Shown piece after piece: positions 6,619-58,561 of a DNA stretch of 64,000 bases (positions within the stretch are counted from its first letter, which is position 1; the number at the start of each line of letters is the position of its first letter). The translations under genes and the position numbers were made by a program. The notes below the pieces were generated by a model. The model was given only the letters and a program-made list of their open reading frames with translations, was not told where the DNA came from and ran no database searches. This stretch comes from Paracidovorax anthurii (GTDB lineage Bacteria > Pseudomonadota > Gammaproteobacteria > Burkholderiales > Burkholderiaceae_C). Where the stretch lies: contig NZ_QLTA01000009.1 in NCBI RefSeq assembly GCF_003269065.1, positions 62,001 to 126,000 of the forward strand, written 5' to 3'.

Positions 6619-6637
6619 AGAACGTGTTCACGATCTC
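6619..6637 (+). repeat. solitary M-element end fragment
   Basis: AGAACGTGTTCACGATCTC is identical to the terminal sequence of the full M element at 58106-58373. No second end is present nearby. Confidence 0.6.
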
Positions 6638-17814: not shown

Positions 17815-17858
17815 GAACGTATTCACGGTCCCGCAGGGGTCGCCCTGAACGTGCTCAG
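17814..17858 (+). repeat. degenerate M-element end fragment
   Basis: AGAACGTATTCACGG then TCCCGCAGGGGTCGC matches the left arm of the full element at 58106. It is followed by a second GAACGTGCTCA. It fills the gap between the convergent TonB-like and uraH genes and touches both stop codons. Confidence 0.6.
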
Positions 17859-35570: not shown

Positions 35571-35840
35571 AGAACGTGTTCAATGTCTTTTTGGAGATCG
35601 CGTTGGAGCGCAATCGGGATGAGTGGATGCTTCGGATGCGCCGCATGGGCTCGCGCCCATGCAAGCAGCCGGGGCGTCCCATCGCCCGATTTCGCTCCCA
35701 CCCGAAGGGCAAGTGCCTTTTCGGGCGGTCTGCGGCGTTGCGGCGTTTGCCGATAGCCGAGCTATCGGCGGCACCCCGCGCCTTGCATCCCCTCCCGAAA
35801 ACACACTTGCGCGACTCGAAAAAGACATTGAACACGTTCT
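35571..35840. mobile_element. M element, full copy 1 (foldback element)
   Basis: 270 bp bounded by AGAACGTGTTCAATGTCTTT and its inverted copy. Terminal arms of about 31 nt (35571-35602 and 35810-35840) pair with each other. Internal stems: TTTTCGGG/CCCGAAAA (35718-35725 with 35794-35801) and GCCGATAGC-CGA-GCTATCGGC (35749-35769). The interior is about 85% alike to copy 2. No transposase; open frames inside mirror each other through the inverted ends. The right end meets the TAG stop of the gene at 35839. Confidence 0.8.
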
Positions 35841-38755: not shown

Positions 38756-38779
38756 AGAACGTGTTCACGATCTCCCAGG
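38756..38779 (+). repeat. solitary M-element end fragment
   Basis: AGAACGTGTTCACGATCTCC, then CAGG, matches the right-end sequence (inverted) of the copy at 58106-58373. Confidence 0.65.
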
Positions 38780-41246: not shown

Positions 41247-41263
41247 GAACGTGTTCACGATCT
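41246..41263 (+). repeat. solitary M-element end at a stop codon
   Basis: AGAACGTGTTCACGATCT begins with the A of the upstream gene's TGA stop, the arrangement also seen at 17814 and 58373. Confidence 0.65.
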
Positions 41264-46990: not shown

Positions 46991-47019
46991 AGAGCGTGTT
47001 CACGATCTCAGACGCTGGG
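46991..47019 (+). repeat. solitary M-element end fragment
   Basis: AGAGCGTGTTCACGATCTC, one change from the element terminus. It adjoins R1 copy I. Confidence 0.55.
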
Positions 47020-58045: not shown

Positions 58046-58105
58046 GCCCCGGAGCATGCCAGCCCTGCGCGCGCGGCGCGAGTGCGAGCTGGCGCCGGGG
58101 CTCTC

Positions 58106-58373
58106 AGAACGTGCTCACGATCTCGCAGGGGTCGCGTTGGAGCGCAATCGGGATGAGTGGATGCCTCGGATGCGCCACATGGGCTCATGCCCATGCAAGC
58201 AGCCGAGGCGTCCAATCGCCCGATTTCGCTCCAACCCTTCGGGCAGTGGCGTGTGCGGGCGGTCTGCGGCGTTGCGGCGCTGGCCCATAGCCGGGCTATG
58301 GGCGGCGCACCGCGCCTTGCATCCCGCCCGCACACGCCACTGCGCAACCCCTGGGAGATCGTGAACACGTTCT
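58106..58373. mobile_element. M element, full copy 2 (foldback element)
   Basis: 268 bp with inverted ends AGAACGTGCTCACGATCTCG and, inverted, AGAACGTGTTCACGATCTCC. Internal stems: 58136-58152 with 58219-58235; GCCTCGG/CCGAGGC (58163-58169, 58203-58209); ATGGGC-TCAT-GCCCAT (58179-58194); GTGTGCGGGCGG/CCGCCCGCACAC (58251-58262, 58324-58335); GCCCATAGC-CGG-GCTATGGGC (58283-58303). Four of these pair in copy 1 too despite changed bases. Non-coding; no transposase. The right end overlaps the stop of the DUF2892 gene. Confidence 0.82.
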
Positions 58374-58561
58374 CAACGGCTCCTGCAGGTATTCATGCCC
58401 ACCAGCGGATACAGCGGGCAGAAGCGCAGCACGCCCGTGAGCAGCGGCACCCCGCCCAGCCATCCCCACCAGCCCACCGTGCCGGTGGCGGCCAGGGCGA
58501 TCAGGGCCAGCCCCAGCACGATGCGCAGCCCGCGGTCGAATCCTCCGATATTGCATTGCAT
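58373..58561 (-). CDS. DUF2892 (YgaP-like) inner-membrane protein
   Basis: 62 residues: MQCNIGGFDRGLRIVLGLAL, then IALAATGTVGWWGWLG and PLLTGVLRFCPLYPLVGMNT. The two-helix DUF2892 unit forms the membrane part of YgaP sulfurtransferase and occurs alone beside rhodaneses and sulfide regulators. Cys in RFCPLYPL is conserved in the family. Its TGA stop is provided by the end of M copy 2. It lies on the same strand as the ArsR gene, 80 bp downstream, likely one transcript. Confidence 0.88.
   Translation of the reverse strand: MQCNIGGFDRGLRIVLGLALIALAATGTVGWWGWLGGVPLLTGVLRFCPLYPLVGMNTCRSR

Follow-up and report, generated by a model that had tools for sequence, protein, structure and literature searches.

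The window analysed here, a stretch of 64,000 nucleotides from Paracidovorax anthurii, holds two copies of a short foldback element, designated M, whose paired stems differ between the copies by changes on both sides. The locus raises the question of whether such a fold is that of an RNA or of a mobile DNA element, and at which stage it is subject to selection. Both copies named in a preliminary description of the window were found as described there, and their parts are as follows (+ and - denote the strand).

58107..58372, +: element M, copy 2, a 266-bp Y-shaped foldback classed as a MITE, GAACGTG...CACGTTC, with the exact target-site duplication (TSD) TCA on both sides
58104..58106, +: left TSD of copy 2, TCA
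58373..58375, +: right TSD of copy 2, TCA
58107..58123, +: left 17-bp terminal inverted repeat (TIR) of copy 2, GAACGTGCTCACGATCT, one letter from the family type GAACGTGTTYACGATCT
58356..58372, -: right 17-bp TIR of copy 2, GAACGTGTTCACGATCT
58132..58236 (approximate limits), +: arm A hairpin of copy 2, with persistent C-T and G-A mismatches
58239..58347 (approximate limits), +: arm B hairpin of copy 2, holding the conserved motif
58262..58321 (C9:120262-120321), +: arm-B core motif of copy 2, GTCTGCGGCGTTGC...GCGCCTTGCA
35572..35839, +: element M, copy 1, 268 bp, of a different subfamily, with the inner stem CAATGTCTTTTT and the flanks TCA/TAA, an inexact TSD
35728..35787 (C9:97728-97787), +: arm-B core motif of copy 1

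The two copies show 83% identity over the aligned part. Their limits, earlier given as 270 and 268 nucleotides, had to be drawn in by the outermost A and T: because both TIRs were located in 112 of 117 loci, these letters are assigned to the duplicated target TNA, and the element itself measures 266-268 bp, from GAACGTG to CACGTTC. Four of the open frames that lie within the copies or run across them yielded no Pfam family, and within these frames and this length M contains no transposase or other gene, which is one of the marks of a MITE. (Note that the right TSD of copy 2 coincides with the TGA stop, on the minus strand, of a 62-codon open frame at 58373-58561.)

M is a repeat in its own genome and beyond. 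Besides the copy at 58106 the genome has 13 main places, about 14 in all, and shorter pieces were also listed. Ten of the 13 are full-length at 95.5-98.5% identity, one is cut by a contig end, and two belong to the second subfamily at 83%, one of these being the copy at 35571. Within the genus, a match to M was obtained in 11 of 17 genomes (own genome included; 3 of the 11 weak matches only), and the richest relatives carry 47 to 84 matching pieces. A BLAST draw at the level of the family gave a match in 77 of 299 genomes and 52 of 141 genera.

The flanks of these copies record how M is inserted. Exact 3-bp duplications border 84 of 112 copies, and all of them are TNA (TTA 33, TAA 27, TCA 15, TGA 9). 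The base preceding the duplication is C in 91 and the base following it G in 77 of the 112 copies; the target is mostly CTNAG. The central base is A or T in 60 of the 84 insertions, opposite to the CTNAG sites of the window, where it is C or G in 47 of 52. In 45 of 83 copies the duplicated TNA shares its reading frame with the longest open frame upstream, as do 18 of 49 control sites (p 0.07); this is a hint that M is inserted onto stop codons. A comparison with empty sites was tried for the copy at 58106, but the upstream flank was present in 11 of 11 fetched relative loci and the downstream flank in 0 of 11; an empty site is thus not demonstrated for this copy, and the TSDs carry the argument for insertion. 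No clear orientation bias relative to neighbouring genes emerged (the four arrangements, defined by greedy open frames, numbered 27, 21, 19 and 16, counts of low reliability, since frames stayed open where they met the element's edge).

A candidate source of transposase is present. The own genome carries IS5-family elements (DUF4096 + DDE_Tnp_1) whose ends, for instance GAACGTGTTTACGATCT and GAGCCTGTTCAAAGTCT, have TNA beside them. Their transposase belongs to the Pfam families DUF4096 and DDE_Tnp_1 (PF13340/PF01609), and one of its two frames scored above the cut-off of NCBIfam NF033580 (IS5 family). In the relatives G004 and G012, IS5-family ends agree letter for letter with the M family type over 17 bp, GAACGTGTTCACGATCT. 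TNA flanks the IS5 ends in the own genome and in the genus, with exact duplications at some of them (L086, L360, L365), and the TNA-duplicating IS5 group of the partner is probably the IS1031 group. As judged from these sequences, the ends of M match those of a putative autonomous element of the IS5 family with the same 17-bp ends within the genus, a second mark of a MITE. By the features tested, M is a MITE. Single IS5-type ends (GAACGTGTTCACGATCT or close to it) also occur in the window at 6620-6636, 17815-17831, 38757-38773, 41247-41263 and 46992-47008, with no partner end located nearby; these five are probably remnants of decayed elements.

Within the genus, 7 of the 8 genomes that have clear M copies carry the partner IS subgroup, versus 2 of the 9 others (Fisher p 0.015; the cut-off was picked after the fact, ancestry is uncontrolled, and G001, G002 and G011, whose matches are all weak, were scored as without M). 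When G011, whose M match has an E value of 5.9e-25, is scored as M-bearing, the figures become 7 of 9 versus 2 of 8 (p 0.057). Genome G008, a single contig of 4.57 Mb with 37 two-ended M copies, contains no member of the partner IS subgroup at E <= 1e-20. In one Variovorax draft the element has other ends; these occur in three places, of which two are its own, and the draft showed no partner.

Both copies of M in the window share an architecture of a basal stem, a hinge and two hairpin arms, A and B, which together form a Y. The minimum free energies of the two copies are -209.6 kcal/mol (z -17.2) and -169.2 kcal/mol (z -12.6), and 0 of 200 shuffles were as low in either case. The stem differences that had been named between the copies are real and complementary, and the stem GCTTCGG/CCGGGGC does hold two G-U pairs. 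Covariation, which the preliminary description had proposed as the check on these differences, was scored against shuffles and slid structures and not with R-scape. For this, 155 elements were pooled, comprising the two-ended loci of 262-272 bp and 50 of 55 elements from a motif search (5 badly bounded ones were omitted), and were reduced to 45 clusters of less than 87% identity; alignment A1 uses 44 of these lineages (<87% mutual identity), the reverse duplicate of L274 being omitted, and a further alignment, A2, uses 42 of 51 references. Of the 81 predicted pairs of A1, 69 have both partners changed in one sequence or more, and 93.0% of the cells are paired, whereas the shuffled alignments reach 62.9% and the slid structures 34.9-44.1%. 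Cells changed on both sides number 1009, as compared with 299 after shuffling (0 of 500 shuffles as high). A structured foldback with true compensatory changes is thus strongly supported by the 81-pair alignment and its shuffle and slid controls. The interior of M is a fixed architecture (basal stem, hinge, two arms, arm-B motif) rather than filler, and it is kept by compensating changes between lineages. Homogenisation of the arms by inversion inside the element, the refuting scenario of the preliminary description, was not seen as a rule: within the 25 commonest combinations listed for 112 copies, the main CTCGCAG/CTCCCAG type occurs once with its stem asymmetry reversed, and one variant close to this type is reversed as well.

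These counts contradict the view of M as an ordinary MITE whose paired interior is unconstrained and merely a legacy of common ancestry. M does resemble an ordinary MITE in its TIRs, TSDs and copy number, but compensation on this scale between lineages below 87% identity, together with two length clusters that have different TIRs (see below), makes this view very improbable.

Selection may act on resident copies or on the element as it spreads, and the age of the changes bears on this. Changes private to one copy and changes shared between copies were tabulated in three genomes with 11, 30 and 36 copies (length limits 262-272 bp). The private changes comprise 88 one-sided and 2 compensated ones. 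Among pair types common to at least three copies, 26 are one-sided, 16 two-sided with Watson-Crick pairing and 2 two-sided and unpaired. Under a looser definition, in which a pair combination is unique to one copy, G008 has 10 two-sided changes (5 of them Watson-Crick) and the other two genomes have none. The arm-B motif received private changes at 9 of 1848 site-copies versus 80 of 13480 at other paired sites (p 0.74), whereas shared changes affect 2 of its 72 sites versus 71 of 526 others (p 0.006). Since residents lose pairing while the spreading lineages stay paired, selection for the fold appears to act on the element as it propagates rather than on resident copies.

The same gradient would also fit a palindrome that is kept not by selection but by templated correction, through quasipalindrome repair or template switching, one arm being copied onto the other: compensation grows with age, from 2 of 90 private to 16 of 44 shared changes and then to 93% pairing between lineages, and the equal numbers of G-T and A-C mismatches in the basal stem, given below, agree with it. 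Blind palindrome repair is argued against by arm A, where a C-T mismatch persists in 16 of 18 lineages and a G-A mismatch in 17 of 18, beside pairs that are formed, albeit in a stretch that is also conserved in sequence. The scarcity of shared changes in the arm-B motif likewise does not fit. The three genomes often show a G-G mismatch at 19/248, yet it is present in only 2 of 18 lineages. Slow templated correction could be the source of part of the private/shared pattern; as the explanation of M as a whole we regard it as distinctly improbable.

The kinds of mismatch bear on whether the fold is selected as RNA or as DNA. Under selection on a one-strand RNA, G-U pairs are expected to be tolerated or favoured, and A-C pairs are not. 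The two G-U pairs mentioned above had been taken to point to structure at the RNA level; this finds no support in the basal stem (G-T 28, A-C 29) or in the changes private to single copies (G-T 26, A-C 27, other kinds 35), and because of this parity the two pairs are not diagnostic. The share of transition-type mismatches is equal in the basal stem (57:43) and in the private spectrum (53:35; p 0.66). The base of arm B has 21 G-T and 16 A-C. Arm A leans towards G-T (29 G-T, 14 A-C), 9 of its 29 G-T coming from one poorly aligned and poorly paired column, and the arm-B core has 51 G-T and 15 A-C, 43 of the 51 coming from one near-invariant motif column, 194/244. All variable pairs together give 129 G-T and 75 A-C. 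In 94 of 112 related copies the + strand gives the stabler fold, and its G-U pairs are the more numerous in 67 of the copies and the fewer in 30; this counts against a reading as DNA, but the copies share ancestry and conserved G-U columns.

An alternative is that M works as a structured RNA, which would be read from one flank or from both and act, for example, as a terminator or stabiliser of mRNA ends, with the MITE ends as a mere vehicle. The fold is very stable, the internal motifs are conserved, the + strand is the stabler one in most copies and arm A is rich in G-T. Because arm A of several families bears the motif in reverse orientation, either transcript would hold one, and the in-frame position of the TNA described above would also suit such a role. 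We nevertheless consider an RNA function unlikely: G-T is not favoured over A-C in the basal stem, where the spectrum equals that of private changes, and no constraint on the motif could be detected among resident copies. Rfam gave no match at the gathering threshold in the whole window; the single weak match in 58080-58400 was P33 (E 0.9, 15.1 bits versus a gathering score of 45). On the pattern of substitutions, the fold under selection in spreading lineages is most likely a DNA fold.

We therefore lean, with moderate confidence, towards M being a non-autonomous MITE that is served in trans by an IS5-family transposase and whose interior fold is selected as DNA during spread. An IS5-family DDE transposase acting in trans would move the element. 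The folded DNA, as a single-strand hairpin or an extruded cruciform, would help its mobilisation or establishment, and selection would act at that stage, not on RNA and not on a host function of each copy. This explanation is weakened by G008 and the Variovorax draft, where the partner IS was not found, by the association of M with the IS, whose p value rises to 0.057 when G011 is moved, by the two-sided changes of G008 under the looser definition, by the rarity of the G-G mismatch across lineages, and by the rise of compensation with age, which also fits slow templated correction. A DDE transposase acting on double-stranded ends, moreover, is not known to need inner pairing, which counts against it as well.

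M belongs to a wider set of elements that share the arm-B motif. The motif occurs in at least 119 stretches in named genomes, and among the 80 titles listed for such stretches most are Betaproteobacteria and some are oddly assigned metagenome bins. Copies L246, L259, L261, L264 and L219 lie in bins labelled Planctomycetota, Omnitrophota and Desulfovibrionaceae and could be either misbinned contigs or real transfer. The arm-B profile was matched in 105 of 300 genomes of the order and in 43 of 398 genomes of a phylum draw (the large searches with profile R1 used stricter filters, and R1, poor in structure with 17 pairs and the variable apical stem mostly lost, is mainly a sequence profile). The invariance of the motif in A1 and A2 is partly by construction, because both alignments were largely collected with it; independent support for its conservation comes from the family-level BLAST draw, in which many distant matches span only positions ~151-220.

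A first measure of element length used windows centred on 267 and was biased, and it was redone without a length prior. The 122 motif matches in 119 loci then gave an axis in 82 cases and none in 40, and the lengths fell into clusters at 160-179 (25) and 265-284 (48; the palindromic bases of the target are counted in), leaving 9 outside both (some of these loci repeat the same element). Two size classes, one-armed of about 167 and two-armed of about 267 bases, thus recur with different terminal repeats, of which the wider family has many types. In several families part of the arm-B motif recurs in arm A as its reverse complement. At L067:443-709 (G000:C1:117442-117708) lies a second family of Y-shaped elements, 267 bp long, with the ends GAGCGTGTTTACGATCT, the same arm-B motif and otherwise different sequence; it folds similarly to M. 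The element at L274:1098-1364, in a Thiobacillus bin, has the full motif in each arm, in opposite orientations. The loci L254, L242, L305 and L212 are one-armed, 161 bp long (167-173 bp by another measure in three of them) and bordered by 3-bp TNA duplications. Two foldbacks of about 39 bp, L062:845-883 (G000:C67) and L063:3704-3742 (G000:C51), consist of the basal stem alone and are apparently M elements minus both arms.

A broader and more tentative proposal is that these one- and two-armed elements (~167/~267) may constitute a foldback superfamily of Betaproteobacteria, in which folded single-stranded DNA or a cruciform, together with the motif, would be the substrate read by a protein during spread and the TIRs would be borrowed from different DDE transposases. 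With the TIRs borrowed and the core fold kept, the unit of selection would be the folded DNA, not an RNA or a gene. No vehicle for the spread of M was recognised in the plasmid, phage and viral-contig collections: M occurs in one plasmid record at two places, the one place examined lying between annotated genes, and in no phage record; the second 267-bp family is present in one plasmid record, and the arm-B motif in three viral-contig stretches.

Strong covariation is usually read as proof of a functional RNA. In M it is accompanied by parity of G-T and A-C in the basal stem and by decaying resident copies, the pattern expected if folded DNA is selected during spread. The mismatch-asymmetry and private-versus-shared tests are applicable to other candidate RNAs that lie in repeats, and with M it could be tested directly whether inner palindromes are of importance in MITE transposition.

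A search of the literature at the level of titles and abstracts found none on element M, and it was compared with several known systems. With the IS5-related MITEs of bacteria it shares its short length, the lack of any gene found, TNA duplications, many copies and TIRs that IS5-family elements of the genus carry in identical form. The interior of MITEs is usually not conserved, whereas M differs from the IS5-related ones in its conserved Y-shaped fold, its compensatory evolution, its narrow size range and a motif found across the order. ERIC, Correia/NEMIS, RUP and YPAL are foldback repeats, imperfect palindromes present in many copies; compared by description, M is set apart from them by two arms, a hinge and two size classes. 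It resembles the REP/BIME pairs, which are moved by RAYT transposases, in having two inverted hairpins with conserved bases, but it has TIRs and 3-bp TSDs, which REP elements are not known to have. The stem with two small arms also resembles, again by description, the inverted terminal repeats of parvoviruses; unlike these, M shows no regular flip/flop inversion of the arms, given the one reversed copy and one variant. On this comparison M is a bacterial MITE of a known kind, but a new and unusually structured one.
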